From an uncultured Pseudacidovorax sp. (GTDB taxonomy: Bacteria; Pseudomonadota; Gammaproteobacteria; Burkholderiales; Burkholderiaceae_C): a stretch of DNA of 42,621 nt. The position numbers and the translations under genes are program-made. Location of the stretch: assembly GCF_913773995.1 (NCBI RefSeq), contig NZ_CAJYES010000003.1:1-42621 (forward strand). Reading direction: 5' to 3'. The notes below the pieces were generated by a model. It searched no databases and was not told the DNA's origin. It saw only the letters and a list, made by a program, of their open reading frames with translations. Of this stretch, positions 5,501 through 24,235 are shown in pieces; position 1 is the first letter of the stretch, and the number at the start of each line of letters is the position of its first letter.

Positions 5501-8500
5501 ATGGCGCTTTCCCACTACGCCGAGCTTTGGTGTCTCTCCAATTTCTCTTTCCTCCACGGCGCCAGCCATCCTGAAGAACTGGTCGAGCGTGCCCACGAGC
5601 TGGGCTACTCAGCTCTGGCCCTCACAGACGAGTGCTCGATGGCCGGCATCGTGCGGGCGCATGTGGCGGCTAAGGAGGTGGGACTCAAGCTGCTGATCGG
5701 CGCACAGTTCAAGGTCGAGCACAACGCCCCGTTCACCTTCATCGTCCTGGCGCGCAACCTGCAGGGCTACGGCAACCTGTGCGAGTTCATCACCAGCTTG
5801 CGGCGCAGCGCGGACAAGGGGACCTACCGGCTGACCTTCGGCCACCTGGCCAAGCAGCGCTTCGAAGACTGCCTGGTGCTGCTGGCCCCACCGCGCGGCA
5901 CCACTTCTGACCACCTGAACGCCCTCACCGACTGGTTGCAGGCGAGCTTCGAGGATCGATGCTGGCTGGTCGCGCTGCGTGAACGGGTTCTCGGCGACGA
6001 GATGTGGCTGCACCAGTTGCGCCAGGCCGCGAACGCCTTCGGTGTGCCCGTGGTGGCCGCTGGCGACGTCCACATGCACTTGCGCTCCCGCAAGCCGCTG
6101 CAGGACGTCCTGACCGCCACCCGCATCGGCAAGCCACTCACGGAATGCGGCCTGGCCCTTCAGCCGAACGCCGAGCGCCACCTGCGCACCCGGCTGCGCC
6201 TGGCCCAGCTCTACCCCGCGTCGCTGCTGCGCGAGACCCTGCGCGTAGTTGAACTCTGCGACTTCTCGCTGGACGAGCTGCGCTATCAATACCCCGACGA
6301 GGTCGTGCCAACGGGCGAGACCCCGGCCTCCTATCTGAGGCGCATCACCTACGAAGGTGCAGGCCGCCGGTGGCCGGAGGGCGTCTCAGCCAAGGTGCAG
6401 CAGCAGATCGAGCACGAACTGTCGCTCATCTCCGAGCTGCACTACGACCACTACTTCCTGACCGTCTACGACATCGTACGCTTCGCTCGCTCCCGACACA
6501 TCCTCTGCCAAGGACGGGGCTCTGCGGCCAACTCGGTCGTCTGCTACTGCCTGGGGGTCACCGAAGTGGATCCGGCGCGCATGTCGGTGCTCTTCGAGCG
6601 CTTCATCAGCCGGGAGCGTAACGAACCGCCAGACATTGACATCGACTTCGAGCACGAGCGCCGTGAAGAGGTCATGCAGTACCTGTACCAGAAGTACGGG
6701 CGCGACCGCGCCGCCCTCGTGGCGACGGTGATCAGCTACCGGCCGCGCTCGGCGATCCGGGACGTGGGCAAGGCCCTCGGCTTCGACCTGGAGACAGTGG
6801 ATGCCCTGGCCAAGGGCCACCAGTGGTGGGACGGGCGCGAAGTGCGGCCGGAGGCCTGGGCCGAGGTTGGCCTCGATCCCGACGACCTGCAGGTGCGCCA
6901 GCTGGTGGCGATCACGCAACAGCTGATGGGGTTCCCGCGCCACCTGTCGCAGCACGTGGGCGGCTTCGTGCTCACGCGAGGCCCGCTCGCCCGCATGGTG
7001 CCCATCGAGAACGCCTCGATGGTGGACCGCACGGTGATCGAGTGGGACAAGGACGATCTGGATGCCGTGGGCCTGCTCAAGGTGGACTGCCTGGCCCTGG
7101 GCATGCTCACCGCAATCCGAAAGTCGCTGGAGTTCATCGGCGAGCGCAGGGGCTACCGCTTCGAGATGCAGGACATCCCGGCGGAGGACCGCACGACCTA
7201 CGACATGATCTGCAAGGCCGACACGGTGGGTGTGTTCCAGATCGAGAGCCGGGCCCAGCAGGGCATGCTGCCGCGCCTGAAGCCCCGCTGCTTCTACGAC
7301 CTGGTGATCGAAGTCGCCATCGTGCGGCCTGGGCCCATCCAGGGCGGCATGGTCCATCCCTACCTGAACCGGCGCCAGGGCAAGGAGCCGGTGACCTACC
7401 CCAGCGAAGCGTTGAAGGAAGCGCTGGGCCGTACGCTGGGCGTTCCGGTGTTCCAGGAGCAGGTGATGCAGATCTCCATCCTCGCCGCGGGCTTCACGCC
7501 GGGCGAGGCGGACGGGCTACGGCGCTCCATGGCCGCGTGGAAGCGCAAGGGCGGGCTGCAGCAGTACTACGACAAGATCGTCAACGGCATGACGGACCGT
7601 GGCTACGACGAGGCCTTCGCCAAGAGCATCTTCGAGCAGATCAAGGGCTTCAGTGAATACGGTTTTCCGGAGAGTCACGCAGCCAGCTTCGCGCTGCTGG
7701 TCTACGCCAGCTGCTGGATCAAGTGCCATCATCCGGCGGAGTTCCTGGCGGCCATGCTTAACAGCCAGCCGTTGGGTTTCTATTCGCCTTCGCAGCTGGT
7801 GCAGGACGCGAAGCGGCATAACGTCGTTGTGCGGCCCGTGGACGTGATGCACAGCCAGGTGGACTGCTCGCTCGAAGGTCTGCCGCATCCGCCGGCGGTG
7901 CGGCTGGGCCTGCGCATGATCGACAAGCTCAAGGGTGAGTCGGCGCAGCGGATCGTGCAGGCGCGGGAGCAGGCGCCGTTCGACAGCGCAGAAGACCTGG
8001 CACGGCGGGCAGGCCTTGAACAGCACGAACTGAAGATCCTCGCGGCAGCCGATGCGCTGATGAGCCTGTCTGGTCACCGGCGCCAACAGGTCTGGGATGC
8101 GGCAGCGCTGCGACGAGCGCCGATGCTGCTGCAGGACGCACCGGTGGATGAGGACTATCTGGAGTTACCCGAAGCACCGGAGGGCGAAGAGATCGTTTGG
8201 GACTACCGGTCCCTTGGCTTGACGCTGCGGCGCCACCCGCTGGCATTGCTGAGGGAGAAGCTCAAAGCCAAGGGGCTCAGCACCGCGGCTGACCTGTATA
8301 ACCTGCCCAGCGGAAGGCATGTGCGCTACTGCGGCATCGTGACACTGCGCCAGCAGCCGGACACGGCCAATGGCACGATCTTTGTCTCACTGGAGGACGA
8401 GACGGGCGTGGTGCAGGTGATCTGCTGGAAGAGCCTGCGAGAGCAGCAGCGTGAGGTGATGCTGCGGTCTAGGCTGCTCGCTGTGCGCGGCGAATGGCAG

Positions 8501-8602
8501 CGCGAGGGCGAGGTGCGAAACCTCATTGCGCATCGGCTTGCCGACCTGTCACCGCTGCTAGGGCGGCTGGCTGAATCTGCGGACAGTCGGGATTTTCGAT
8601 GA
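5501..8602 (+). CDS. dnaE2: DnaE2, error-prone DNA polymerase III alpha subunit
   Basis: A 1033-residue C-family polymerase, about the usual length for DnaE2 (~1050). It replicates past lesions with ImuA and ImuB and causes induced mutation. Visible parts: an N-terminal PHP domain (C-L-S-N-F-S-F-L-H-G at 11-20, A-L-T-D-E-C near 43); the palm motif P-D-I-D-I-D-F around 377-383; the second catalytic Asp in L-L-K-V-D-C-L-A-L-G near 525; helix-hairpin-helix sequences; and a C-terminal OB fold (R-Y-C-G-I-V ... V-S-L-E-D-E-T-G) around 940-1015. The first PHP metal ligand, His in many relatives (L-H-C-L-S-N), is Trp here. The clamp-binding tail of replicative DnaE is absent, as expected. It starts 9 nt after imuB. 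A small GC-rich hairpin (8623-8643) follows without a T-run. Confidence 0.96.
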   Translation: MALSHYAELWCLSNFSFLHGASHPEELVERAHELGYSALALTDECSMAGIVRAHVAAKEVGLKLLIGAQFKVEHNAPFTFIVLARNLQGYGNLCEFITSLRRSADKGTYRLTFGHLAKQRFEDCLVLLAPPRGTTSDHLNALTDWLQASFEDRCWLVALRERVLGDEMWLHQLRQAANAFGVPVVAAGDVHMHLRSRKPLQDVLTATRIGKPLTECGLALQPNAERHLRTRLRLAQLYPASLLRETLRVVELCDFSLDELRYQYPDEVVPTGETPASYLRRITYEGAGRRWPEGVSAKVQQQIEHELSLISELHYDHYFLTVYDIVRFARSRHILCQGRGSAANSVVCYCLGVTEVDPARMSVLFERFISRERNEPPDIDIDFEHERREEVMQYLYQKYGRDRAALVATVISYRPRSAIRDVGKALGFDLETVDALAKGHQWWDGREVRPEAWAEVGLDPDDLQVRQLVAITQQLMGFPRHLSQHVGGFVLTRGPLARMVPIENASMVDRTVIEWDKDDLDAVGLLKVDCLALGMLTAIRKSLEFIGERRGYRFEMQDIPAEDRTTYDMICKADTVGVFQIESRAQQGMLPRLKPRCFYDLVIEVAIVRPGPIQGGMVHPYLNRRQGKEPVTYPSEALKEALGRTLGVPVFQEQVMQISILAAGFTPGEADGLRRSMAAWKRKGGLQQYYDKIVNGMTDRGYDEAFAKSIFEQIKGFSEYGFPESHAASFALLVYASCWIKCHHPAEFLAAMLNSQPLGFYSPSQLVQDAKRHNVVVRPVDVMHSQVDCSLEGLPHPPAVRLGLRMIDKLKGESAQRIVQAREQAPFDSAEDLARRAGLEQHELKILAAADALMSLSGHRRQQVWDAAALRRAPMLLQDAPVDEDYLELPEAPEGEEIVWDYRSLGLTLRRHPLALLREKLKAKGLSTAADLYNLPSGRHVRYCGIVTLRQQPDTANGTIFVSLEDETGVVQVICWKSLREQQREVMLRSRLLAVRGEWQREGEVRNLIAHRLADLSPLLGRLAESADSRDFR

Positions 8603-8814
8603 CGGTGCAAAGGAGCATAACCAGCCGCCCCTCGGAGCGGCGGCACATGGGCAATGTAGCAACTGCGATGCATTACGCGGCAAGCAGAGGGAGTACGCGG
8701 ACACTGTTGGAAAAGGGAACACCAGAAGGCCGAGTGATGTTGGCCGATGCAGACGGTCGCGTCGACTGAGAGCAGCGCGGCTTCGTCCGCGAAGGCCAGG
8801 CCTACGAGGCGAGC

Positions 8815-9267
8815 TTGTTGGGACGGGTTGACGTAGACGCCTATGTCCAGGGCGGCCGTATCCGGGTGCGCCTGCACGAAAAGGGCGGCAAGCTGCACGC
8901 TGTGCCCTGCAACGCGATGCTTGAGCGCTACCTGCTGGCCTATCTCGACGGAGCGGGCATGCGTGCTGATTCGAAGGGTTTCCTGTTCCGCACGGCGCGC
9001 GGCACGACGGGACAACTGTCCGAGCGGCCGATGGGTCAGTCCGACGCCTACCGCATGATCCGGCGCCGCGCCGCCGCGGCCGGCATCGCGACCCTCGTCG
9101 GCAACCATTCGTTCCGCGCGACCTGCATCACCGAGCTGCTGCGCAACGGCGGCAAGCTCGAAGATGCGCAATGGATGGCAAACCATGAGAGCGCGCGCAC
9201 GACCGGCCTCTATGACCGGCGCAACGACGACATCAGCCTCGACGTGGTCGAGCGGATCGTGATCTGA
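8815..9267 (+). pseudogene. tyrosine recombinase, C-terminal catalytic half (fragment)
   Basis: About 150 residues of the catalytic domain of a phage-type tyrosine recombinase. Seen are R-L-H-E-K-G-G-K (beta-sheet Lys region), H-S-F-R-A-T (box II H-x-x-R), the second His in A-N-H-E-S, and the nucleophile Tyr in G-L-Y-D-R-R. The N-terminal core-binding domain and the box I arginine are missing. The frame is open only back to 8770, where it meets TGA at 8767, and the residues encoded between 8770 and ~8820 do not look like integrase. The matching N-terminal half sits on the opposite strand at 9307-9582. No start with a ribosome binding site is visible; the fragment cannot be an active recombinase alone. 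Confidence 0.75.
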
Positions 9268-9306
9268 GGACACCCAGCAGGCGGACTTCGATGTTGAGGA
9301 CGACGA

Positions 9307-9582
9307 CTGCTTGACCGATGGCAGCGCCAGCTCGATCTGTAGCGTCTCGACATAGGCCGCGACATGGACCGGCTCGATGTCGCGCAGCTCGGTGATGCCG
9401 GCTTCGTCGCTACACCAGACCGCGAACTGCGTGGCGGCGCGCGCATAGGCGCGGCGCGTGTTCGGGTTGCGGATGTTGGCCGTGAAGAATTCGAGATAGC
9501 GCCTGGCCGCGTCGGGCGTCGGCGCGAAAAGCGCCGGCAGGACGGGCAGGTCCGCGGTGATCTTCGTCAGCGCCCCTGCCAT
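9307..9582 (-). pseudogene. tyrosine recombinase, N-terminal core-binding half (fragment)
   Basis: Starting at an ATG (9582), about 92 residues match the N-terminal SAM-like core-binding domain of phage-type integrases. Examples are A-A-R-R-Y-L-E-F-F, N-P-N-T-R-R-A-Y-A-R-A-A-T-Q-F, D-I-E-P-V-H-V-A-A-Y-V-E and L-A-L-P-S-V-K-Q. In intact relatives V-K-Q is followed by a helix of the type H-L-A-A-L/I-R-M-L-F; here it continues into unrelated sequence (S-S-S-S-T-S-K...), so homology stops near 9307. The open frame continues antisense through the C-terminal half and is not meaningful there. The start lies 11 bp from a 44-bp inverted repeat that could be the enzyme's own recombination site. Confidence 0.72.
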
Positions 9583-9593
9583 GCCCCCTCGCC

Positions 9594-9637
9594 GTTAACC
9601 GGTGCTTGATAACGTCCTTTATCAGGCACTGGTTAAC
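9594..9637. repeat. 44-bp inverted repeat, possible recombinase core site
   Basis: Left arm GTTAACCGGTGCTTGATAA (9594-9612) and right arm TTATCAGGCACTGGTTAAC (9619-9637) are inverted copies matching at 17 of 19 positions, separated by a 6-bp spacer CGTCCT. Two arms around a 6-8 bp spacer is the layout of tyrosine-recombinase core sites. It lies just upstream of the start of the integrase N-terminal half (9582). It has no T-run on either side, which argues against a terminator. I see no second copy in the window. Confidence 0.7.
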
Positions 9638-9740
9638 AAGAAGTGAAGGGGCCGGATCAAGACCTGTCGGGCCCGCATCGGCTGCGGTATGGTGCTGGCA
9701 GAGGTGCGCTGCGTCGCGCCTACCTGTGGAGGAAGTTCAG

Positions 9741-10742
9741 GTGTTCATTCTCGATACCGATCGTCTTCGCATCGGCGACATCATCCTGACAGCGGACCAG
9801 ACGCTGCTTAGCAAGGGCATACGTGCGGCCACCGGAGGCTCGTTCTCTCACGCCATGCTCTACGTGGCGGACCACAGCTACATCCACTCGGACGGCGACG
9901 GGGTCCATTCCGGCAACACGCAGAGACGGTTGTTCTCCGCCCTCGGTGATGCAGCCGTTCTGCGCCTGCGGACTCCTGATGCTTCAGCCGTGGAACGCGC
10001 GTGTGTGTACGCGCGGACCCAGGTCGGAAAGCAATATTCGAAGGCGGAGGCCGTCAGGTCAAGAAAATTTAGGGATGTGGCGGATCAGCTGGAAGACTCG
10101 AACCGCCAGTTCTGTTCGCGGCTGGTCGCGCAGGCCTATTCGTTTGCCGGAGTGCCCCTCGTTCCTAACGCGGACTACTGCTACCCGAGCGACTTTGCCA
10201 GCTCGCAGCTTCTGCTGGCGGTTGCGGCGCCGCTTCGACAGGCGCGCGCCGCCGAAATCAAGTTCGCCCAGTCCGAAAACCCTATTGAGCGGCAGACGCG
10301 AGCGACCAACTTCATCCTGGACGAGGTGCGCAAGCTCAGCGGTCTCGACATTCAGACCTTTGAGCAACTGCCGGAATTTCTCATCCAGAACCCACAACAC
10401 GATGCAGCGGTGTGCGAGATCGTGAAGGCGTCAGGCTACCTCGATTTATGGAAGGAAGATGTACTGCGCAATCCTTGGCGCTACGACGCCGCGGAGTTTA
10501 GGAGGCTCCCTTTGCCATCTGCCGAACGAGAGCGCGTTGCGCGTCGGGAATTGCCCGCTGCCGAGCAGCAGCTTCAACAGTTCACGTTCGTGTACGGGCA
10601 GTACCTGACGCTCTGGCAACAAGCAAAGCTTAACTACTTCGCGGCGGAACTGCAGCTCTACATGTACCTAATCGATGTCACCAAGCAGCGGATAGAGGCG
10701 GCGCGCCAAGTGCTGGGGCAGCGTCCTGCAGGCGATACCTAG
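9741..10742 (+). CDS. NlpC/P60 (YiiX/YebB-like) papain-fold hydrolase domain protein
   Basis: A 333-residue protein from GTG 9741, chosen because GGAGGAA lies 7 nt upstream. The frame is open back to 9606, but that part has no family similarity. The N-terminal ~170 residues look like the circularly permuted NlpC/P60 (YiiX-like) fold: R-I-G-D-I-I-L-T-A, then the catalytic-type His in F-S-H-A-M-L-Y-V, then Cys in Q-F-C-S-R-L-V-A-Q-A-Y. Such proteins are cysteine hydrolases acting on peptidoglycan amides, or on acyl or amide bonds. Residues ~175-333 are helical and charged and I do not recognise them. There is no signal peptide, so a cytoplasmic target is more likely than cell wall. Its TAG stop overlaps the stop of the convergent helicase gene (shared CTAG), which ties it to the defence island. 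Confidence 0.72.
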   Translation: MFILDTDRLRIGDIILTADQTLLSKGIRAATGGSFSHAMLYVADHSYIHSDGDGVHSGNTQRRLFSALGDAAVLRLRTPDASAVERACVYARTQVGKQYSKAEAVRSRKFRDVADQLEDSNRQFCSRLVAQAYSFAGVPLVPNADYCYPSDFASSQLLLAVAAPLRQARAAEIKFAQSENPIERQTRATNFILDEVRKLSGLDIQTFEQLPEFLIQNPQHDAAVCEIVKASGYLDLWKEDVLRNPWRYDAAEFRRLPLPSAERERVARRELPAAEQQLQQFTFVYGQYLTLWQQAKLNYFAAELQLYMYLIDVTKQRIEAARQVLGQRPAGDT

Positions 10743-12262
10743 ACTACGAACAGAGGGCTTGGATTCGTTCGTGACACTACCAGCTGCAGCCGATGCGTGG
10801 CGCGGCTTAGCGCGACGTACAGCAGGCAGCGCGCATCTTCCTTGTCCGGAAACGTGTCAGCGTTGACAGGGAGAAGAATGACGCTTTCGCATTCGAGGCC
10901 CTTGGCCTTGTGAATCGTGCTGATCGCGCGAGCGGGCGGGCTTGGCCGGGCGTAGGTGCGACGGTGCGTGATCTCGGCGAGCCCGATGTCAGGGCTCTCG
11001 TAGTCACCAAGCCGCACAGCCTCCCAAAATTCTTTGCCGTGATCGATCTCGATAGCGCCGAAGGCTGCCTGCTGTTCCTTCATCTCACGCAGGCGCCGCA
11101 GCATCTTCGACACGCCATGATGATCGGGTTCGGCCGTCAGCGAACGGGCAAGCTCCTGGATCAGGGCCGGTTTGCCGGATGTGGATTTCGTGCAGCCCTC
11201 TGTGGCTTCGCGGATCAGTCGATCGCCGAAGGCTGATGGACTGAAGCCCTTACCGACATCGTCCATAAAATCGACAACGGCCGCGGCAATGGCGGCCGCG
11301 TTGCCCATGTCGGCCTGGATTGCGGCAACGAGACGGTCAAGTCCGTCCCTGGTGTGTCCCTCCCAGATCGGCAGGCGGCGCATGAACATGGCCCGGATTG
11401 CCCGTGCGGTGTCGTTGTATCGCGTGAGGACAAGCAACGATGACTGGGTCTTTTCAAAGTCGTCGATCGGCTTCCGCTGCATCGACGCCAGCTGGATGCC
11501 CATGCGGACCTGCGACTGGTTTTCGGCGATCACTACCTGAACACTGTCCGGCAGCCCGGACCTCAGATCGATGCGACCGTTGTTCTGCAGCGTCTCGCGT
11601 GCCTTAAGGGTCCACGCCCCAAGATCAGGGCAGCCACCGCGACCCCAGCGATGGGGAAAGTCCAGCCGCTCGAAAGCTTGTGCTGCACCGGTCAGCGCAT
11701 TCCAGTCGTAGCGCGGCAAGGCCCCTTTTACCGGCTTGTCGGTAAAGATGCGCTGCATCGGGTCGGCGAATATCCGCACACGCGACCCCTGCCCGGCTAG
11801 TGCCATCACGACGGCATGCTGATCGCCGCTTGAATCCTGGTGTTCGTCACACAGCACGACGGGGTAGCGACGCGCTGCAGCAGTCGCGACCATGGGATGG
11901 CGCTTGAGCAGCGCGGCCGCGCGCAGCGCAAGCTCGCCGTAGCCATCCTTGCGTTGACGAACCCATGCTGCTGTGTCCGCCGGCAAGCCGAGGCCCGCGT
12001 GATACGCACCGGCAATGCTGGCAATCAGGCTGTCGATCGTCGCGATTTCTACACGGGAGCCGGCCCCTTTGGTGCGGCTGGCGAAGACTGAACATGCGGC
12101 ATGCGTGTGCGTCAGGATGAGCATGCGCTGCGCGTCGCGGGCTCCGGACAGCGCATTGGCGTAGTCCGCGCCTTGATGGGTCTTGCCACAGCCCGCCGGC
12201 GCTTCCACGACGACAAGCGGAGCGTCGGAACGGATGGCGGCGCTGACACTCGCGTCGCTCAA
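10739..12262 (-). CDS. gajB: UvrD/Rep-type helicase, GajB-like (Gabija)
   Basis: A 507-residue superfamily 1A helicase. Motifs: Walker A A-P-A-G-C-G-K-T (21-28), T-H-T-H-A-A (motif Ia), DEHQD (139-143), F-A-D-P-M-Q-R-I-F (motif III), I-S-T-I-H-K-A-K-G-L-E (motif V) and Y-V-A-L-S-R-A-T-H-R-L (motif VI) near the C-terminus. It is much shorter than UvrD (~720 aa) but close to GajB of Gabija (~495 aa), which pairs with an OLD nuclease. The TTG start at 12262 is chosen because it overlaps the stop of the OLD gene (TTGA), giving translational coupling. Later uncoupled starts cannot be excluded. It is the last gene of the six-gene operon. Helicase type is sure; the Gabija assignment follows from the partner. 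Confidence 0.88.
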   Translation of the reverse strand: MSDASVSAAIRSDAPLVVVEAPAGCGKTHQGADYANALSGARDAQRMLILTHTHAACSVFASRTKGAGSRVEIATIDSLIASIAGAYHAGLGLPADTAAWVRQRKDGYGELALRAAALLKRHPMVATAAARRYPVVLCDEHQDSSGDQHAVVMALAGQGSRVRIFADPMQRIFTDKPVKGALPRYDWNALTGAAQAFERLDFPHRWGRGGCPDLGAWTLKARETLQNNGRIDLRSGLPDSVQVVIAENQSQVRMGIQLASMQRKPIDDFEKTQSSLLVLTRYNDTARAIRAMFMRRLPIWEGHTRDGLDRLVAAIQADMGNAAAIAAAVVDFMDDVGKGFSPSAFGDRLIREATEGCTKSTSGKPALIQELARSLTAEPDHHGVSKMLRRLREMKEQQAAFGAIEIDHGKEFWEAVRLGDYESPDIGLAEITHRRTYARPSPPARAISTIHKAKGLECESVILLPVNADTFPDKEDARCLLYVALSRATHRLQLVVSRTNPSPLFVV

Positions 12263-14022
12263 GATGGCAGGTCTTCCAGAATTGGCAGGCCCGCCGCGGT
12301 GCGAGCAGCATTGCAAAAAGGCAGCAGCTGCGTCTTGACTGCGGGCCAGACGCCAAGGCTGAACAGCTTTTCGGCAAGTTCGCGGCCGCCGCGTTCCGTC
12401 TTGAACCAGTCCTGCGACTGCTTGCTATACGTCTTCTTCTCGGCCTCTGGCGTGCCTTCCGGCACGGTGCCGCCAGCCGCTTCTCTGACGAGCCGCTTCA
12501 GTTCGACCCCGGCCTTAGCCTTGATGCTGGCGAAGTCCTTCGGATCGATCTTGAGACGCATCGCCAGGGAACGTAGCCGGCGCCCGGTCTTTTCATCGTC
12601 GGGGTCGGTGATGAAGGCTTCGATCTTGTCATCAGTGAGTGCATCGACGATGTTGGATTCGATGTCGCCCGTTTTCCAGCGAAACAGCAGTGGACCAAGC
12701 TTCTTCTGCACTTCCGTCCAGCGCGTCGGGTGCCTGTTCTCGTCGTCAGCGAATCCGCCAAACTGCATGCCGCCTTTGGATAGGGATTCCAGCAGCTCGA
12801 TCGTCGTGTCATGACCGCCGCCATCAGCGACGTGGAACCCGAGAGGCTGGAGTTCCGATGCCAGCGCTTTTGTGAGCAGACACCGGACGAATCCAACTTC
12901 AGTGATGCCCTCGGCGACGATGGTCAACCGGGCAAGAAACGCATCAGGGTCGGTGGCGCGGAGTTTCGTGACCTTCGTGCCTGTGAGTTGTCCCAGTCCG
13001 CCCGTCTGGTCCATGTACCAGAGAGACGCTTTGCCGGCGGCGGAGATCGCTGCTGGGCTATGTGTCGTGATGAACGCCTGCGACGAGGCATCCTGCAGCC
13101 TCGCCATCAGGATGCGCTGTCGGTACGGCTCCAGGCCACGCTCGACTTCATCGACGATGGTGATCGGATTACCGCCCTGAATCTGCTCGGCGATGGCCAG
13201 CGCCGACAACCGCCTGGTCCCAGCGCCCCAGCTTGATAGGGGCAGCTGTACCGTCTCGCGCATTGCCGTCAATCCGACGAGGGAGGCGATCGACGGTCCC
13301 TGCCCACCCGTAAGGGCGATATCGAGATCATTCGGTAGCTTGTGGTCGCGGAACACCTTGTTCAACTTGCCGAGAGCCTTGCGTGCATCGTCGGATAGCT
13401 GCGAAAGCATGTCGTCGTTCTCGGCGAGCTTGTTCGCTATGCGAGCGCGGAGCCCCTTGTCGGTCAACAGCCTGTCCAGTGCCGAACCCTGCACGAGCCG
13501 CAAGTCCCGATCATTGCGATCGTCGCCACTCAGGCGCACCAGTCCGATCGCGCGACGAAATGAAACTGGCAACGATTCCGTCATCCCGCTCGGCTGAACG
13601 ATCTCGTAGCTGAGTTCGAGGTCGGAGGTGCCACGAACGCGCAACACGTACACCTCTTCGCCGGCAGGCTCGCTGCCTTCGTCGTGAGCCGGAACGGTTG
13701 CGTTCTCGCCGTTCCAGTTCCACGGCCACGACGGCTTCGTCAGCTGATTGATGCCAACGCCCGCGGGCAAGGCCATCACGGCCTCGATGCTGAATTCCGC
13801 CGCTTCGTCGCGCAGGTTGTAGTCGCTGTCCAGGACCGACGCACTGTTCGTCGGGCTCAGGAGAAGGCTGATCGCATCGAGGATCGTCGTCTTGCCGACA
13901 TCGCCACCGCCGAGGATGAGGTTGACGCCGCGCGCCGGGTGCCACGACAGGTGCTTGATGCCGCGGAAACGCTCGATGGTCAGCTTGTAGATCGTGGGTA
14001 CGCTGGGGCTGCCTGTTGTCAC
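12259..14022 (-). CDS. gajA: class 2 OLD-family ATPase/TOPRIM nuclease, GajA-like (Gabija)
   Basis: A 587-residue protein, close to the ~578 residues of characterised GajA. The N-terminal ABC-type ATPase has Walker A G-G-G-D-V-G-K-T (38-45), a signature-like S-W-G-A-G-T-R-R (264-271), Walker B I-T-I-V-D-E-V-E (287-294) and the switch His in T-T-H-S-P. The C-terminal TOPRIM domain has the invariant Glu in V-A-E-G-I-T-E (Glu371), Asp400 in A-D-G-G-G and an acidic cluster F-A-D-D-E near 425-428. Class 2 OLD nucleases are defined by an adjacent UvrD-like helicase, as here. In Gabija, GajA nicks specific DNA and is held off by nucleotides. The GTG start overlaps the vsr stop by 4 nt (GTGA). Confidence 0.9.
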   Translation of the reverse strand: MTTGSPSVPTIYKLTIERFRGIKHLSWHPARGVNLILGGGDVGKTTILDAISLLLSPTNSASVLDSDYNLRDEAAEFSIEAVMALPAGVGINQLTKPSWPWNWNGENATVPAHDEGSEPAGEEVYVLRVRGTSDLELSYEIVQPSGMTESLPVSFRRAIGLVRLSGDDRNDRDLRLVQGSALDRLLTDKGLRARIANKLAENDDMLSQLSDDARKALGKLNKVFRDHKLPNDLDIALTGGQGPSIASLVGLTAMRETVQLPLSSWGAGTRRLSALAIAEQIQGGNPITIVDEVERGLEPYRQRILMARLQDASSQAFITTHSPAAISAAGKASLWYMDQTGGLGQLTGTKVTKLRATDPDAFLARLTIVAEGITEVGFVRCLLTKALASELQPLGFHVADGGGHDTTIELLESLSKGGMQFGGFADDENRHPTRWTEVQKKLGPLLFRWKTGDIESNIVDALTDDKIEAFITDPDDEKTGRRLRSLAMRLKIDPKDFASIKAKAGVELKRLVREAAGGTVPEGTPEAEKKTYSKQSQDWFKTERGGRELAEKLFSLGVWPAVKTQLLPFCNAARTAAGLPILEDLPS

Positions 14023-14501
14023 TTCCGGGCTCTCCCTTGGTCAATGTTCTCCCCGGCGATATCGAGCATCGGGCCGGCACCATTCCGGACAAAGTGAGTG
14101 GCGCTGTCAAGGACGCCGTCTTCAGGAAGGCGGCCACTGCCGCGCAGCGCGCATTCCCAAATGACCAGCACGCGCCAGCCTTCGGCCAGCAGCGCATCGA
14201 CCGCCCTTTGATCGCGCGTAGCGTTTGCTGCCAGCTTGGTCTGCCAGAAGTCCTGCCGCGTCGCGGGCAGCTTCGACAGCGCGCAGCCATGCGCGTGCCA
14301 GAAGCAGCCGTGAATGAATACGGCTGTATGGTGCTTCGGAAAGACGAGATCGGGCCGGCCGGGGAGTGACCGGTCATGCAGGCGGTAGCGCAGGCCCCGC
14401 GCGTGCAATCCGCGGCGGATCAGCATCTCGGGCTTCGTGTCCTTGCCCTTGATGCGGCTCATGTTGAGCTGGCGCTGTTCGGGTGTCAGCACGTCGGCCA
14501 T
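14019..14501 (-). CDS. vsr: Vsr very-short-patch mismatch endonuclease
   Basis: A 160-residue Vsr protein. It shows M-S-R-I-K-G-K-D-T-K-P-E near residue 14, P-G-R-P-D-L-V-F with the catalytic Asp near 50, and H-G-C-F-W-H-A-H-G-C of the zinc-binding/mismatch-binding region. Vsr nicks DNA at T:G mismatches made when 5-methylcytosine deaminates inside the site of its partner methylase, and so starts repair. Here the partner is most likely the cytosine-5 methylase of the same operon. The ATG at 14501 directly abuts the stop of the McrC-like gene (no gap), and the end overlaps gajA by 4 nt. A tail of about 25 residues extends beyond the usual Vsr core. Confidence 0.93.
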   Translation of the reverse strand: MADVLTPEQRQLNMSRIKGKDTKPEMLIRRGLHARGLRYRLHDRSLPGRPDLVFPKHHTAVFIHGCFWHAHGCALSKLPATRQDFWQTKLAANATRDQRAVDALLAEGWRVLVIWECALRGSGRLPEDGVLDSATHFVRNGAGPMLDIAGENIDQGRARK

Positions 14502-16163
14502 TCACGCTCCCGCTCCCGCGTCTGCCACGATGGTGCGCAGACAGCCCCGCAGCTCTTCGCCCGACATGCCGGGCCGCAGCGTCACCGCGCCGAAGCGGAA
14601 TTTCTCGCGGTACTCCGGATGGAAAAGCCGGCCCGGTACGGGCGTGGCCTTGAAGTCCGTCTGCGGGCCTGCCGGCACATGCGGGGTAAGCAGATAGGCG
14701 GCTGTCACGATGCCCTCGGTCCGGCCGCTGCCAACCTCCTGCACGAGCGCGTCGCGGTAGGTGTGGATCGAGTTCAGCGCATCGTTGAGGCCGTCATTGA
14801 TGCGGTACTTCGCGTCGAGCACGATCACCCGCCGTTCCGGGCCGCCCAAGTCCCTGCCCGCCAGCACAACATCGGGCACCATCGTCCGGCTGAAGCTGCC
14901 CTCGCGGCTGTCCTCGACCCAGTATTCGCGGTACTGCCGCTGGAAACACAGCACGCGGTCACCACCAATCGGGACGGTGATCGCGCCGGCCGCGATCGTC
15001 ACGCCGCCGCCGGCCTCGCTGAGGAACAGGTTGCTCAGGTCCACGCCCGACGTGCCGTATTCCTCGACGGCGGCGCGCAGCAGGCGCAGGAAGCACCACA
15101 GCTCGTACAGCTCATAGGTCCGGGCCAGCGGCATCTGCAGGAAGTCGCCGAACAGGGCCGCGAGGCCGAGATTCATGTCCTGCCAGAGCCGATAGAAGCG
15201 CTGATAGACCGGATCGTTGCGGAACAGCGAAGACATGCGCAGCAGCGCCGGCCCCTCGCCGACCTCGGCCATGAAGCCGGCCGCCGCGACATCGTTCAAG
15301 CGCCGCGCGATCCGCCGCGTCCGCACGGCCCAGCTGCCCGCCGTGGTAACCGTCTCGGGATCGTCGGTGGTTCCTGCCTTTACCAGCAGCTCGGCGATAC
15401 CGGAGAGCCAGGCCGCCCAGGAATGCAGGCAGGCCTTGATCTGCCGGTGCTCGGGGATGTCCACGCTGTTGCGTCGCTGCCGTAGCGTGATGTGCGCCGG
15501 CAGGCGACCCTTCAGCGCGGCCGGCAGACGCGAAGGCCGTACCGTTTCGGTCCTGATTACGCCGGACCGGAAGGACTTGATGATCTCGGGGCCTGTTGCG
15601 CGTGTGGCGCGGTGCGCCGGCACTGTAATGTCCTCGGCGCGCAGATAGTGGCGCGGGGCACGCGCAATCGCCTCGACCGTCGCGACGATCGCTTCGGCGC
15701 GCGAGCGCAGGAACTCGAGGCGGGCCAGCGGCGGCTGCCGGTTGCCCGGCTGACGGGCAATGCCCTTGCGGAACGCGCTCAGCGAGAACAGCGCGAACGT
15801 GTCTTCAAGGACTTCGCGCACCATCGCGTCGAAGTCGTCGCGCGTGAGCTTGCGCAGGTCTGGATCGGTCGTGACCTCGAAGCGGCGCGTCCCGATGCCT
15901 GGCACGCGCAGCACGGCCCCGACCATGCCGGCATGAAACCCAGGCTGCCAGCGCCAGCGGGCCTTGCGCGGTTCGCGCGAGCGCAGCGCCTCGACGGGCG
16001 CATCGTCGATCAGCAGGTCGGCCGCAAGCGCATCGTCGCTGTCGCGCAGCTCAAAGAGATAGGACGCCCCTTCCCGCACCGCGCCGGGCGGCACCGCATC
16101 CGGCACAGGCCAGACCTGCCATGCCGGTCCGCCGCCTTCCGCCTGGATGTAGAGCGCCGCCAC
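14502..16163 (-). CDS. DUF2357/McrC-like PD-(D/E)XK nuclease subunit
   Basis: A 553-residue protein with DUF2357-like organisation: a long N-terminal beta-rich and helical region and a C-terminal nuclease domain. The nuclease signature is V-P-D-V-V-L-A followed by R-V-I-V-L-D-A-K-Y-R-I around 425-453, a clear P-D ... D-x-K pair. Such proteins are encoded beside McrB-type motors and act as the cleavage subunit, as McrC does in McrBC and as the second restriction subunit does in LlaJI-type systems. The GTG start lies 3 nt after the stop of the McrB-like gene. It could be called mcrC-like, but overall similarity to McrC cannot be judged here. Confidence 0.82.
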   Translation of the reverse strand: MAALYIQAEGGGPAWQVWPVPDAVPPGAVREGASYLFELRDSDDALAADLLIDDAPVEALRSREPRKARWRWQPGFHAGMVGAVLRVPGIGTRRFEVTTDPDLRKLTRDDFDAMVREVLEDTFALFSLSAFRKGIARQPGNRQPPLARLEFLRSRAEAIVATVEAIARAPRHYLRAEDITVPAHRATRATGPEIIKSFRSGVIRTETVRPSRLPAALKGRLPAHITLRQRRNSVDIPEHRQIKACLHSWAAWLSGIAELLVKAGTTDDPETVTTAGSWAVRTRRIARRLNDVAAAGFMAEVGEGPALLRMSSLFRNDPVYQRFYRLWQDMNLGLAALFGDFLQMPLARTYELYELWCFLRLLRAAVEEYGTSGVDLSNLFLSEAGGGVTIAAGAITVPIGGDRVLCFQRQYREYWVEDSREGSFSRTMVPDVVLAGRDLGGPERRVIVLDAKYRINDGLNDALNSIHTYRDALVQEVGSGRTEGIVTAAYLLTPHVPAGPQTDFKATPVPGRLFHPEYREKFRFGAVTLRPGMSGEELRGCLRTIVADAGAGA

Positions 16164-16166
16164 GGT

Positions 16167-17843
16167 TCACCGCATCGCCTGGAAGGAGCCGAAGTCGTCG
16201 AGATCGGTCAGCAGCCGGCGGACGAAGGCCTGCGCGCGCGGCAGGCCTTCACAGGCCTTGTCGAGGCCGGTCAGCAACGTGCGTTGCCGTTCGGCACCGC
16301 GCAGCTTGACCAGCACCTTCTGCACGAGCAGCTGGTCCGTGACATCGGCCGCAGCGCTCTCCAGGTGCGCGGCGTCGAAGGCGTGATAGCGCACGAATTC
16401 CTCGATCAGCCGGTAGCCGAAGCCGAGCCCGTATTGCTGCATGAGGCCGTGGATTTCGGTCAGCTTCGCTTCGGACGCGGTACGCGCATCCTTCAGCTCG
16501 GGATAGCGGGTTTCGAGCGAAGCGAGGAAGCCCGGCACATCAACCGCGGACATATCGATCACCGACGCGCGGTCGAGGACCTTGTCGCTGACCGGGTTCG
16601 TCGTCTCATCGACGTTGATGGTGCCGATGATGAACAGGTTCGCCGGCAGTGGCAGCTCGGCCCGGATGCTGGCGCCGGTCGTGCCTTCAAGCGGCACGCT
16701 GTTCGAGTGCAGCTGCAGCCGGCCCTGGGTCTCCATGCAGGACAGCACGTCGGACAGGTAGTACTCGACGCGCGCCAGGTTCATTTCGTCGAGGATGACG
16801 AAGACCGGGGACTCGCGGTGCGCGGTCGCGACCAGCACCGCTTCGAGGAAGGTCGGCACGACATAGCGGTTCGTCAGCACGTCGAAATAGCCGGTCAGCC
16901 CGGTCGGGTCGGTCCACTCCGGCCGCACCGGGCACTCGAAGATCAGCGGATCGTCGTCCGTGTTCGAGGTCAGGCCATGCACTGCCCTGGCGTACTTCAA
17001 GGCCAGCTGCGTCTTGCCAGTACCGGAGAGGCCGGACAGGATGACGAAGTGCTTGTGCGGCAGGAAATTCAGCGCTGCATGAAAGCGCTTTACTTCGCCG
17101 TTCGGATAGTGGCCGCCCAGTGCCTTGACGGCGGCTTCGATGTCGGCCACCGGGATGCTCGCCGGCATGCGGCGCATGGCCGGGCTCAGCGTCGCCGTAT
17201 CGGTCCAGACCGGCAGCTCGTGAATTTTCTGTGATCCGACCAAGCTGCCCAGCCAGCCGATGAACTCGCGCGCCAGCAGGCTGCGCCGGGCCGATGCGGT
17301 CGGTGGGTACAGTGCGACGACGATTTCATCCGGTTCCGTCGCCGGACCGAAGGGCGACATGTCGAAGGCGAGGCTGTCCCAGAACTTGGCGTTGCGCAGC
17401 CAGAGCCGCCCGTCGCGGGCGAGGTAGATCGGGACCAGGTTGTTGCGGGCGCTGTACTTGATGGTCGCGCCCGGAGCCTCAGGGGCTTCCTCGTCAGCGC
17501 CCTCGGACAGCAGATCGGCCGGTTCGGCGCCCGCGGCCTTCGCGGCGGCGCCGAGCTTCTTCATTTCGGCGAGGCGGGCCAGGAAGCTGGCCTTGTCCTT
17601 GCGCACCAGGACCGCGAAGTAAACCTCGTCCTCGGGCGGGAAGCGCATGACGCAGCCAAAGATCAGGGCTTCGGTGTCGTCCTTGACGTTGTCGAGATTG
17701 ACGACGCCGAGCTGGATGCCGCCCTCGACGATCTTGGCGCTGTTGGAGACGCCGAACAGCTCGCGCGGGCGGACTGCCTTCGAGGTCCCGAAATGCTTCT
17801 GCGCGGCCTCAAGAAACCGCTGCTGCCGCTCGACGGGGTTCAT
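16167..17843 (-). CDS. McrB-like AAA+ restriction motor with unassigned N-terminal domain
   Basis: A 558-residue AAA+ protein of the McrB clade. Walker A is G-L-S-G-T-G-K-T (271-278). Next come R-P-E-W-T-D-P-T-G-L-T-G-Y-F-D (308-321), typical of McrB proteins, then Walker B F-V-I-L-D-E-M-N-L-A-R-V-E-Y-Y (348-362) and G-T-I-N-V-D-E-T-T with K-V-L-D-R-A as sensor region. In McrBC the motor (GTP-driven) translocates DNA and drives the McrC nuclease. Residues 1-~230 are a separate region I do not recognise; by analogy with McrB they may read the DNA target or its modification. A charged Ala/Glu-rich linker lies at ~93-125. The ATG start lies inside the methylase gene (35-nt overlap). Confidence 0.88.
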   Translation of the reverse strand: MNPVERQQRFLEAAQKHFGTSKAVRPRELFGVSNSAKIVEGGIQLGVVNLDNVKDDTEALIFGCVMRFPPEDEVYFAVLVRKDKASFLARLAEMKKLGAAAKAAGAEPADLLSEGADEEAPEAPGATIKYSARNNLVPIYLARDGRLWLRNAKFWDSLAFDMSPFGPATEPDEIVVALYPPTASARRSLLAREFIGWLGSLVGSQKIHELPVWTDTATLSPAMRRMPASIPVADIEAAVKALGGHYPNGEVKRFHAALNFLPHKHFVILSGLSGTGKTQLALKYARAVHGLTSNTDDDPLIFECPVRPEWTDPTGLTGYFDVLTNRYVVPTFLEAVLVATAHRESPVFVILDEMNLARVEYYLSDVLSCMETQGRLQLHSNSVPLEGTTGASIRAELPLPANLFIIGTINVDETTNPVSDKVLDRASVIDMSAVDVPGFLASLETRYPELKDARTASEAKLTEIHGLMQQYGLGFGYRLIEEFVRYHAFDAAHLESAAADVTDQLLVQKVLVKLRGAERQRTLLTGLDKACEGLPRAQAFVRRLLTDLDDFGSFQAMR

Positions 17844-19314
17844 TGGCAGCCTCCCTTTCTTCTGTTTGTTGTTTGAGCGTCTTCATGATCTGCGTCGCGA
17901 CAGCCTTCGCGAGCAGCGGCGGGACGGCGTTGCCGATCTGCCGGAACGCCGGATTCATCGTGCCGCAGAACAGGAAGCCGTCGGGGAACGAGTGCAGCCG
18001 CGCGGCCTCGCGCACGGAGATCGTGCGGGCCTGCCTGCTGTCGTAGTGGATGTGGCTGTAGCTGTCCTTGCCGAGGTGCGCCATGAGCGTGCGTGCCGGC
18101 TGGTCGCGCCACATCTTGCGCCACTTGTTCGGGAACTTGCCCACGTCGTAGGGCGGCACGATCGAGGCCTTGATGTCCTCGTATTTCTGCGAGCCGGGTT
18201 TGACCTTCACCCCCTGCTTCGCGAGGTCGGCAAGGTGCTGCTCGAACATCGCCATGGCGTGTTCATAGGCCTGGGGATACTGGTCGCCCGGGTTCATGCG
18301 GGCGAAGAGCGGGTAATCGCGCGGCAGATATCGGATGACGTGGTCGGTCAGGACCGGCGGGGCCTCGAAGCCCGGCCAAGTCCGCATCAGCTTGGCATAG
18401 GGCGTGTGGGGTTCCCTGCCATAGGGCATGGGCACGTCGAAGCGGCGGGCGCCGCGGCGCAGCTTACCGCTTTTGAGCAGCTTGCGCGCGTCGATGGATG
18501 GCAGATCGCCGAGTGCATCTTCCGCAGTGATGGCCTGCGGCAGCGAGCGCGTGGCCTTTGGCGCGTGGATGTAGTGGTGCGCGTCGTCCGCGATCCCGCT
18601 GTCGAGGAACTTCAGTGCCACCGAGCGGGTGCCTTCATAGCCTGGCGGCAGGTCGATGAAGTGTGTCGGCTCGGGAAACGTCACCACATCGGCGATTTCG
18701 CGCCGGTAGGCGATCAGGATCATCCGCTCGCGCATCTGGGGCACGCCGTAGAAGGCAGCGTTCAGCAGCGTGTAGCGGCAGATGTAGCCCTTGCTCTCTA
18801 GGACTTCGGCGATCTCTTCGGCGATGTTCTGGCCGCCGTGGTTCAACACGTCGGGGACGTTTTCGACCACGACGGCAAGCGGCGCGAAGGCTTCGACGTA
18901 ACGCAGATAATCGATGTAGAGTTGGGCGCGCGGGTCGTGCTTGAACGCTTCGGCGTGGTTGTCCACCTCGCGCAGCTTGGGGCGGCCGACGCGGGCGAAA
19001 GCCTGGCAGGGCGGGCCGCCGACGAGCACGTCGAAGGCGTCAGCTGTCGGACCGGCCTGCAGGTCCTTCACGAGCTGATCCGGGCTGGTCTTCGTGATGT
19101 CGCGGGCCTGCGAATGCGCTGCGTCGCCACCGTGGAAGTTGCGGCCGTGGGACGCCGCGGCTTCCGGGTCGAATTCGACCGCGCCGGCGATCGAGAACCC
19201 GGCTGCCGAGAACCCGAGAGAGATCCCGCCGCAACCGGCGAAAAGATCGAGCACACGGGGCTTGCCGCCCGCCTGCAGGCGGGCAATCTTCTGGCGGATG
19301 GCGCGCGTGCTCAC
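17809..19314 (-). CDS. Dcm-type cytosine-5 DNA methyltransferase
   Basis: A 501-residue C5-methyltransferase with all main motifs: I V-L-D-L-F-A-G-C-G-G (21-30), IV G-G-P-P-C-Q-A-F with catalytic Cys103, VI V-V-E-N-V-P near 150, VIII Q-M-R-E-R-M, and X I-G-N-A-V-P-P-L near the C-terminus. The long stretch between VIII and X (~170 residues) is the target-recognition domain; the site cannot be predicted. It transfers a methyl group from S-adenosylmethionine to C5 of cytosine and should protect host DNA from the nuclease genes that follow. The start is GTG at 19314 with GGAAGG about 10 nt upstream. It is the first gene of a six-gene operon and overlaps the McrB-like gene by 35 nt. Confidence 0.93.
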   Translation of the reverse strand: MSTRAIRQKIARLQAGGKPRVLDLFAGCGGISLGFSAAGFSIAGAVEFDPEAAASHGRNFHGGDAAHSQARDITKTSPDQLVKDLQAGPTADAFDVLVGGPPCQAFARVGRPKLREVDNHAEAFKHDPRAQLYIDYLRYVEAFAPLAVVVENVPDVLNHGGQNIAEEIAEVLESKGYICRYTLLNAAFYGVPQMRERMILIAYRREIADVVTFPEPTHFIDLPPGYEGTRSVALKFLDSGIADDAHHYIHAPKATRSLPQAITAEDALGDLPSIDARKLLKSGKLRRGARRFDVPMPYGREPHTPYAKLMRTWPGFEAPPVLTDHVIRYLPRDYPLFARMNPGDQYPQAYEHAMAMFEQHLADLAKQGVKVKPGSQKYEDIKASIVPPYDVGKFPNKWRKMWRDQPARTLMAHLGKDSYSHIHYDSRQARTISVREAARLHSFPDGFLFCGTMNPAFRQIGNAVPPLLAKAVATQIMKTLKQQTEEREAANEPRRAAAAVS

Positions 19315-19383
19315 AGGCGCGCACCTTCCCGTGATTGCTTGGTGGTCATGGTCTTGTTGGGATTTTTGGAAGGGTCGGCGCCG

Positions 19384-19572
19384 TTACTGGCGGCGGAAAA
19401 GCGGGTACTGCGCCTCGACGTACTTCTCGACGGCGTCCCGGACGACCCAGGCGACGGACACCTTTTTGTCTTCGGCGATCCTTTCCAGCTCGGCGTAAAG
19501 GTCTGCGGGGAAGGTCACCGACGCGCGAGTGCCTTCCTTCGCCGGAGCGTGCTGTTTCGCGGTGACTGCCAT
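19384..19572 (-). CDS. ribbon-helix-helix (CopG/Arc-like) DNA-binding protein
   Basis: A 62-residue basic protein with a typical ribbon-helix-helix core: T-R-A-S-V-T-F-P-A-D-L-Y-A-E-L-E-R-I-A-E-D-K-K near residues 15-38, then V-S-V-A-W-V-V-R-D-A-V-E-K-Y. The ATG at 19572 is preferred to an upstream in-frame start (19641), because the added residues show no fold. Such proteins are dimeric repressors of their own operons, as in antitoxins and plasmid regulators. No toxin gene lies next to it. It ends 69 nt before the methylase gene on the same strand, and a repeat that looks like an operator lies 24 nt upstream of its start. It may control the restriction operon; this is an inference. Confidence 0.78.
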   Translation of the reverse strand: MAVTAKQHAPAKEGTRASVTFPADLYAELERIAEDKKVSVAWVVRDAVEKYVEAQYPLFRRQ

Positions 19573-19595
19573 GGGGCGCTGCGAGTGTGTGCGGA

Positions 19596-19626
19596 GATGC
19601 ACCACATTACACCACAGCGGTGCATC
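19596..19626 (-). promoter_or_regulatory. candidate operator of the ribbon-helix-helix gene
   Basis: GATGCACC (19596-19603) and GGTGCATC (19619-19626) form a perfect 8-bp inverted repeat with 15 bp between. Inside it CACCACA occurs twice (19600-19606 and 19610-19616), exactly 10 bp apart, one helical turn. Closely spaced direct repeats at one-turn intervals suit cooperative binding by ribbon-helix-helix dimers. The site lies 24 nt upstream of the start of such a gene. A further 11-bp palindrome GGGGTCACCCC/GGGGTGACCCC lies at 19634-19644. Binding is inferred. Confidence 0.5.
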
Positions 19627-19661
19627 CGGCCTTGGGGTCACCCCCTATGGCGGCGGTTTGG

Positions 19662-20357
19662 CTATGCGGCGGCGGCCGGCACCGTCTCGCGCGGGAACAG
19701 GTCGCCGTTCCCGGTGAGGTAGTACTTGTTCGCCTCGTTCACCTTCAGCGTCCGGCTGAATTCGCGATCGATGTTGATGAGCAGGCCGCTGCTGATGAGC
19801 AGGCTGATGGCACGGCGGATGTCGCGCTCCGGGATGCCGGTACGCGCGTGGATCGTCTCGTAGGCGGCCATCGTGTAAGCGACGGCGTTCGAGCGCACGG
19901 CAGCCAGGTACAGGTAGAGCTTGAGGGCATGCAGCTCGTGTTTCGAGCGCAGGCTGAAGGTGGTGAACGGCTGGATGACGCCGTCCTTCACGATGGCCCG
20001 GCAGGGCAGCTTGAACCACTTTTCGTGCGGTCCGGTCAGCACGTAGCTGCGCCGCTGGGCCGAACCTTGTGGCGTGACGAGGCCGGTCCGCTGCAGGCGC
20101 TTCAGCCCGTCCGCGACCATGGCGCGGGGGCGGCCGGTGGCCACTTCCAGCTCGTCATAGGTCGCATGCGCAATCACGGCCGTGGTGCCGTCCTCCTGGG
20201 TCTCGGTCCGGGCCTGGAACAGCAGCGCGACGTAAAGCATCAGGGCCGCAGCCGAGGTCGCCGCCGCCAGTTCGCCATCGGGCGCCCAGAGCAGTAGCGG
20301 TAGCGCATCGCGCACCGGCTCGGACGGTGCGCGATGCCAGGGCATCGCGCGGATCAC
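19662..20357 (-). CDS. tandem winged-helix DNA-binding protein
   Basis: A 231-residue protein without membrane segments. It contains two winged-helix-like units: T-Y-D-E-L-E-V-A-T-G-R-P-R-A-M-V-A-D-G-L-K-R-L-Q-R-T-G-L-V-T near 67-96, and Y-E-T-I-H-A-R-T-G-I-P-E-R-D-I-R-R-A-I-S-L-L-I-S-S-G-L-L near 168-195. Two winged helices in one chain occur in plasmid and phage replication initiators and in some island regulators; I cannot choose between these. The GTG start overlaps the stop of the small membrane-protein gene by 4 nt (GTGA), so translation is coupled. It precedes the ribbon-helix-helix gene by 89 nt on the same strand. Confidence 0.65.
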   Translation of the reverse strand: MIRAMPWHRAPSEPVRDALPLLLWAPDGELAAATSAAALMLYVALLFQARTETQEDGTTAVIAHATYDELEVATGRPRAMVADGLKRLQRTGLVTPQGSAQRRSYVLTGPHEKWFKLPCRAIVKDGVIQPFTTFSLRSKHELHALKLYLYLAAVRSNAVAYTMAAYETIHARTGIPERDIRRAISLLISSGLLINIDREFSRTLKVNEANKYYLTGNGDLFPRETVPAAAA

Positions 20358-20512
20358 TTCTTCTTCCCCGAGGCGTGCAGCTTGAGGATCACATGCAGCG
20401 CGTAGCCGACGACCAGCAGCGCCAGCACGGGGATCACCGCGGTGAGCAGCTGCACGAGCTGCGGCGCGTGGGCCGCAAGCCAGTCAAGCACGTTGAGAGT
20501 TTCTTTTTTCAT
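20354..20512 (-). CDS. 52-residue single-span membrane protein
   Basis: A short protein starting M-K-K-E-T-L-N-V-L-D-W. It has a hydrophobic span from about residue 19 to 43 (V-Q-L-L-T-A-V-I-P-V-L-A-L-L-V-V-G-Y) and a basic tail ending K-K-K. No family is recognised. It may be a holin-like or island-encoded membrane peptide. The ATG at 20512 has AGG at the expected distance; the open frame extends further upstream, but that part is Cys-rich and shows no family. The overlap with the winged-helix gene supports it being real. The 395 nt upstream (20513-20907) hold an AT-rich stretch at about 20530-20585, a possible promoter region, then the IS21 end. Confidence 0.55.
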   Translation of the reverse strand: MKKETLNVLDWLAAHAPQLVQLLTAVIPVLALLVVGYALHVILKLHASGKKK

Positions 20513-24159: not shown

Positions 24160-24235
24160 TGGTGGCCTGGGGCGGAATCGAACCACCGACACGCGGATTT
24201 TCAATCCGCTGCTCTACCAACTGAGCTACCGGGCC
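24160..24235 (-). tRNA. tRNA-Phe (GAA)
   Basis: A 76-nt tRNA with encoded CCA. The acceptor arms GGCCCGG and CCAGGCC pair, the D-arm region carries AGCTCAGTTGGTAGAGC, the anticodon loop reads TTGAAAA with anticodon GAA, and the T-arm has GGTTCGATTCC. The 3' end points towards the accessory region (lower coordinates), consistent with use as an integration site. It is followed by a strong terminator. Confidence 0.97.

Follow-up and report, generated by a model that had tools for sequence, protein, structure and literature searches.

An RHH-headed, LlaJI-like restriction cassette with a Gabija-like gene pair at its end in an uncultured Pseudacidovorax

Results and discussion

We analysed a 42,621-nt stretch of DNA from an uncultured Pseudacidovorax sp. 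(contig NZ_CAJYES010000003.1, positions 1 to 42,621; hereafter the window). It carries a minus-strand block of defence-type genes that is best read as an RHH-headed, LlaJI-like restriction cassette with a Vsr gene, onto whose end a Gabija-like pair appears to be stacked. Since the cassette is conserved without the pair and the pair occurs without the cassette, we consider it likely that the block represents two defence modules carried on a single regulated transcript, and not the single fused system that had been proposed for six of its genes.

Organization of the operon

The six genes of the original prediction are real and lie on the minus strand, and on re-reading, the junctions of -35, +3, 0, -4 and -4 nt and the non-ATG starts came out as claimed. 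The true first gene had been overlooked, namely an RHH (CopG-type) protein of 62 aa at 19384..19572 (minus strand; PF07878 7.1e-9, PF01402 9.9e-7). On the same strand follow a DNA (cytosine-5) methyltransferase of 501 aa with a GTG start (17809..19314; PF00145 2.2e-57, TIGR00675 3e-52), a McrB-like AAA+ NTPase of 558 aa with an NxD-type signature (N410, D412; 16167..17843), a McrC-like subunit of 553 aa with a GTG start that combines DUF2357 with a PD-(D/E)XK nuclease (14502..16163; PF09823 6.3e-15, PF04411 3.1e-14), and a Vsr T:G mismatch endonuclease of 160 aa (14019..14501; PF03852 1.8e-32, TIGR00632 2.1e-45). The last two minus-strand genes encode a GajA-like OLD-family ATPase/TOPRIM nuclease of 587 aa (12259..14022; PADLOC GajA 4.3e-72) and a GajB-like UvrD helicase of 507 aa (10739..12262; PADLOC GajB 1e-57, PF00580 3.1e-13). 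The GTGA start of the GajA-like gene overlaps the Vsr stop codon, and the TTGA start of the GajB-like gene overlaps the GajA-like stop codon; the TTGA start is backed by a second locus, L002, from the environmental Hydrogenophaga sp. NFH-34, and by four annotated plasmid relatives. Two earlier impressions were borne out: the methylase, McrB-like and McrC-like genes resemble LlaJI, and the final two genes resemble Gabija.

The whole block would be read as one transcript. A promoter and terminator scan of positions 10400-20400, which has little power, gave 0 promoter-like signals (1.3 in shuffled sequence) and 5 terminator-like signals (6.4 in shuffled sequence). Separate promoters had been named among the evidence that would refute the proposed fused system; no internal promoter turned up in this uninformative scan.

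Around the operon, a C92-family amidase-like gene (9606-10742) is convergent with it, the two sharing 4 nt at the helicase end, and a DNA polymerase III alpha-like gene lies nearby at 5501-8602 (PF07733 3.3e-90), which we take to be of the DnaE2 type. On the operon's other side are an IS21 IstB-like gene (20911-21483) and a tRNA-Phe gene (24160-24235), whose presence suggests an integration-prone region; a search of the window for a duplicated tRNA-Phe 3' end returned only the tRNA gene itself.

The RHH gene and the upstream element

The RHH protein is probably an autorepressor encoded by the first gene of the operon. An RHH-like ORF lies ahead of the methylase in 33 of the 34 loci in which the start of the methylase was called; this count comes from visual inspection of a filtered list, in which the ORF of L035 is weakly similar and none was found in L014. 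The RHH gene of L019 was detected by BLAST, and L031 is truncated by the contig end in this head count. The distance from the RHH gene to the methylase is 69 nt in the window and 70 nt in L002.

Upstream of the RHH gene, on the minus strand at 19598..19624, we found an operator/promoter-like element, TGCACC-N4-TGGTGTAATGTGGTGCA. It has one match in the window and 0 in 100 shuffles, although the pattern was derived from this same site and the comparison is not independent. When 11 of 14 upstream regions were aligned (L015, L033 and L037, with an RHH protein of another type, were excluded), 17 of the 18 invariant columns fell within the element, and the flanks diverged; in L005 the left half of the element deviates. 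Its 15-bp core has a single match in the 5.37-Mb genome at no more than one mismatch, and a control read backwards also has one. An exact copy of GTGGTGTAAWRTGGTG is present in 8 of 54 loci, 7 of them distinct. The element is the putative operator of the RHH protein.

The restriction cassette

Retrieval with the DUF2357/McrC-like query yielded 36 cassette loci. The methylase, McrB-like and McrC-like genes were matched in all of them and Vsr in 35, and the four genes are colinear on a common strand in 35 of the 36, L031 being cut by the contig end; these counts include partial matches in L009, L019 and L033, and in L031 at the contig edge. In 32 of the 34 loci having both genes called, the methylase and McrB genes share an overlap of 35 or 32 nt, and the N-x-D signature, with N410 and D412 invariant, is present in 36/36 aligned McrB-like sequences, the window included. 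The same query matched eight plasmid records, four of which were opened, and each of the four contained the methylase-McrB-McrC-Vsr set, with a CopG gene in the two rhizobial plasmids, no annotated CopG gene in the Deinococcus plasmid, and an inverted methylase in the Azospirillum plasmid. In whole-genome surveys the McrC-like protein is rare (2/399 in the order and 3/389 in the family, own genome counted).

In the McrC-like translation a PD...DAK pattern is visible, and Pfam reported no domains besides DUF2357 and the nuclease for this protein. CoCoNuT systems are marked by long coiled-coil domains fused to McrB; the McrC-like protein of the window retains its nuclease domain, and Pfam gave no HEPN match for any of the six operon proteins. 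The Vsr protein matches E. coli Vsr (1cw0) at 2.5e-37 across residues 2-150.

In the McrB-like protein, target sensing possibly resides in a domain formed by the N-terminal ~180 residues. An AlphaFold2 model of the protein (pLDDT 73.5) gave no Foldseek match at E <= 0.001, and a further look mostly concerned residues 215-534, not the N-domain. When the McrB-like protein of L006 (8342-9994) was compared with that of the window (16167-17843), its first ~180 residues proved to be of another type, with 10-50% identity per 30-residue block, despite a methylase 92% identical to the window's. In the accessible part of its description, the N-domain of R1.LlaJI alone is reported to choose the target (PMC1459862); if so, the two dissimilar N-domains of the window and L006 would have to read the same site. 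An N-domain of another type beside a methylase this similar is hard to square with an N-domain that sets the target alone. Across 34 sequences (33 of the 36 loci plus the window; L019, L031 and L033 lack the full set), similarity of the methylase target domain, with bounds estimated at 215-390, correlated with similarity of the McrB N-domain at 0.44 raw; correction for the other domains brought this down to 0.03, and the pairs are non-independent.

Canonical McrBC cuts methylated DNA. By analogy, the McrB-McrC part might be modification-dependent (type IV-like), with the methylase serving as a marker or decoy, and both the L006 combination and the loss of the domain correlation on correction would fit this. 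We nevertheless regard it as improbable: a 5mC-directed nuclease in one operon with a C5 methylase would threaten the host, both N-domain types may read the same site, and LlaJI, according to the accessible text, restricts unmethylated DNA in vivo (PMC1459862).

The Gabija-like pair

Residues E371, D426 and E428 are invariant across 11 aligned GajA-like sequences, including the window's and the shortened copy of L047. E371 and D426 align with the PADLOC-typed GajA of L033, and E428 occupies the second Asp position. The GajA-like profile reaches the solved GajA at E 0.0046, and the GajB-like profile matches UvrD itself at 7.4e-13, ahead of the solved GajB at 5.9e-10. Because the GajA-like protein is distant from the solved GajA, we ascribe a Gabija-type action to the pair through profile models and in qualified terms. 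A structure model of the GajA-like protein, built from three sequences, reached a pLDDT of 34.

The pair directly follows Vsr in one of the 36 cassette loci, L002, and in one more, L006 (of which L054 is a duplicate), it lies 3.6 kb beyond Vsr, behind a HATPase gene and with a short helicase. The cassette thus stands without the pair in 34 of the 36, though in five of these (L005, L009, L023, L031 and L036) the sequence available beyond Vsr is shorter than 3 kb. Conversely, the GajA-like query matched 254 plasmid records, nine of them at 43% identity or more and each with the helicase adjoining, and none of these nine is among the eight records matched by the McrC-like query. With tblastn of all cassette genes, the pair alone was found in seven opened plasmid regions (H2, H15 and H16 lie outside those opened; for L043, which lacks a gene table, tblastn was the sole reading) and likewise in L053, a further genome in which the ~6-9 kb flanking the pair on each side hold no other cassette gene. 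These counts go against the view of six genes fused into one system: homologues that almost never share this neighbourhood had been named as refuting it, and that is largely what we observe, with all six contiguous in 1/36 loci and present at a distance in 1/36. Neither the GajA-like nor the McrC-like protein had a close relative among viral contigs, and no phage record matched the GajA-like protein.

The genome surveys add a qualification. The GajA-like protein occurred in 2/399 genomes of the order (E <= 1e-40), 2/398 of the phylum (E <= 1e-60) and 1/389 of the family, own genome counted, and the only two of the 399 order genomes with a GajA-like protein are the only two with a McrC-like protein, namely the organism's own and G240, the genome of L006. 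That G240 carries both parts counts against full independence of pair and cassette, and the co-occurrence in the order could reflect a preference beyond defence-island clustering.

It is against this background that one integrated system has to be weighed, in which the methylation status read by the McrB-like protein would control the GajAB-like nuclease, or GajAB would process the ends made by the McrBC-like cutter. The shared order genomes, the overlapping genes, the single regulator with an operator-like element at the head, and the low-power scan without an internal promoter are all in line with it, as is the six-gene block kept whole in the second context of L002. Given the 34 loci with a cassette and no pair (five of them with under 3 kb beyond Vsr), and the pair on nine plasmids without a McrC-like match and in L053 without a cassette, we hold such integration to be quite unlikely.

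Comparison with a second copy of the block

The window and L002 share homology over positions 10739 to 19745 (88% DNA identity), and position 10739 is the final base of the helicase stop codon. The homology is unbroken across the Vsr-OLD joint, and all five junctions are identical. The block is intact despite ~12% DNA divergence, which is a point against the two-module reading. In blastn of the window outside the homologous block against L002, no match was found in the flanks. The dN/dS values between the two copies are 0.04-0.10 for all seven genes. Identity, junctions, dN/dS and the lack of matching flanks together argue for a conserved, transferred operon; the operon claim of the original prediction is thereby upheld in a second lineage. 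The dS values are uneven: RHH, methylase and McrB have 0.29-0.33, the McrC-like gene 0.43, Vsr 0.65, OLD 0.83 and UvrD 0.41. This unevenness suggests later exchange within the block.

Ten RHH-type loci, L002 included, were compared on the tail side. In the nine others, homology to the window breaks off within the 3' end of Vsr, the last matching position being 14140 in eight and 14146 in L019; L006 regains homology in the OLD gene. Most simply, the joining would have happened once and the block would have moved afterwards.

It seems highly improbable to us that the pair plays no part in the defence of this host and is carried only as a passenger. The helicase is short in L006, and some free-standing copies have it split or shortened (L041, L046 and L006 were excluded from the helicase alignment for being split or short), as might be expected of a passenger, but the dN/dS values against L002 are 0.10 for the GajA-like and 0.08 for the GajB-like gene, and the TOPRIM residues are kept.

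Genes following Vsr in related loci

We scanned the genes near the Vsr end in 16 of the 36 loci. Immediately downstream of Vsr, L005 carries PDC-S46 and L017 a weakly PD-Lambda-3_A-like gene (8.7e-7) followed by PDC-S06. In L003 (8659-12248) there are a 717-aa HATPase protein and an overlapping 478-aa protein, the latter with no PADLOC or Pfam match, which possibly form an unnamed two-gene defence unit, and L006 has a HATPase protein at 12145-14295. PADLOC assigned mREase_II to L007 (12122-12697; 2.2e-86) and L029 (12114-12641; 8.7e-81), and L016 (12077-12472) encodes a small protein related to these two by homology only; L032 has a CBASS-type 2TM effector. PADLOC terms mREase_II 'methyl-directed', and the genes of L007, L029 and L016 each adjoin an operon that is itself expected to methylate cytosine.

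Within ~0.4 kb of Vsr lie an OLD protein in L026, GmrSD in L030, a standard Gabija (GajA 2.9e-225, GajB 9.4e-215) with a pAgo-like gene in L033 (12273-17902), and a second McrBC-like pair (AAA_5, PF10117) in the extra locus L058 (G833; 6733-9863). The cassette upstream of the standard Gabija in L033 has a McrC-like gene that is matched only partly. The genes near Vsr in L022 and L034 had no match in the scan.

A tightly placed same-strand ORF follows 8 of 31 Vsr ends, as against 92 of 420 (22%) other gene ends in these loci, and 23 of the 31 Vsr ends have no coupled gene. An enrichment of coupled cargo after Vsr was accordingly rejected, also with a cruder random-position control (9/31 vs 30%). 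Since 92 of 420 other gene ends are equally tight, the tight coupling that had been taken as a sign of one system is ordinary and offers no argument for one machine.

These loci bear on a possible extension of the two-module reading, compatible with it and put forward tentatively, in which the cassette would be a chassis with an RHH-controlled 3' slot for interchangeable effectors, kept by selection for operator control. The differing genes directly after Vsr (PDC-S46, HATPase, PDC-S06, mREase_II, 2TM effector, GajAB) fit it, and so do the conserved RHH gene and an operator-like element conserved in the closer loci; the coupling hardly above that of other genes, the many Vsr ends without a coupled gene and the unmatched genes of L022 and L034 speak against it. 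The fuller version is rather doubtful, namely that the cassette is a mobile, self-regulated chassis whose operator controls interchangeable 3' cargo, with the GajAB-like pair as its dedicated second layer here, switched on when restriction fails.

Proposed working of the two modules

On the two-module reading, the first module would be a mobile restriction-modification cassette composed of the RHH protein, the C5-methylase, the NxD-type McrB-like motor, the McrC-like nuclease and Vsr. The RHH protein would repress the promoter and so set the level of the operon, and the methylase would mark the host DNA. As supposed for LlaJI, the McrB N-terminal domain may bind target sites without the mark, the AAA+ ring would power movement and the McrC-like subunit would cut, while Vsr would repair the T:G mismatches left by deaminated 5-methylcytosine. 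The second module would be the GajA/GajB-like OLD nuclease-helicase pair, which elsewhere has its own locus and is here joined to the Vsr stop codon, probably riding the cassette transcript by start-stop coupling. The likeliest course is that two layers act separately, restriction of unmarked DNA and then Gabija-type nuclease action during infection; they would be co-expressed and co-transferred and would not form one machine.

Relation to known systems and significance

BsuMI is grouped with LlaJI as a hetero-oligomeric restriction type. In the accessible part of its description, LlaJI shares with our operon C5 methylation, a McrB-like specificity subunit with a unique N-terminal and a GTPase-type C-terminal domain, a separate PD-(D/E)XK subunit and a similar gene orientation, and its purified subunits bound DNA and showed no GTPase or cleavage activity (PMC1459862). 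LlaJI has two C5-methylases, whereas the window operon has one, for which reason we call it LlaJI-like rather than LlaJI; by the same partial text, Vsr, the RHH gene and the NxD-type motor go beyond LlaJI (PMC1459862).

With the NxD branch of McrB proteins, as described in the accessible part of the source, the operon shares the N-x-D signature and the methylase association; that branch has extra McrC-fused domains and frequent two-component genes, in place of which the window operon has an RHH gene and Vsr (PMC11090510). The accessible account states that many NxD GTPases are methyltransferase-associated, defers the details to a forthcoming publication, and in that portion leaves Gabija unmentioned (PMC11090510). 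The last two genes resemble Gabija in having an OLD-type ATPase-TOPRIM protein beside a UvrD helicase, both matching the PADLOC GajA/GajB models, but they form a divergent subfamily with DxE where GajA has DxD in the accessible text (PMC10781630).

A parallel in principle is DarTG2 lodged within an RptR-controlled type I R-M operon, which, in the part of the source available, likewise has an attached defence system, a small regulator as first ORF and promoter repeats (PMC12255303). RptR is an alpha-helical homodimer, whereas the window regulator is RHH by Pfam; that case also concerns another R-M class with the cargo between the R-M genes, unlike the 3' cargo of the window (PMC12255303, same portion). 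No description of the operon appeared in the literature searched by title and abstract opening, and no pairing of DUF2357 with Gabija was found there, subscription papers and bioRxiv being outside the scope of both searches. The parts, and the principle of one defence system attached to another (PMC12255303, accessible part), are known; the combination did not turn up in the literature searched.

The block shows how a restriction-modification cassette with a putative repressor of its own can acquire a second defence system at its end, the whole being inherited as one block. Natural versions of the cassette exist with and without the Gabija-like tail, and it offers a clean test object for a methylase-linked NxD McrB system, a class in which, according to the accessible text, no McrB GTPase has been characterised (PMC11090510).
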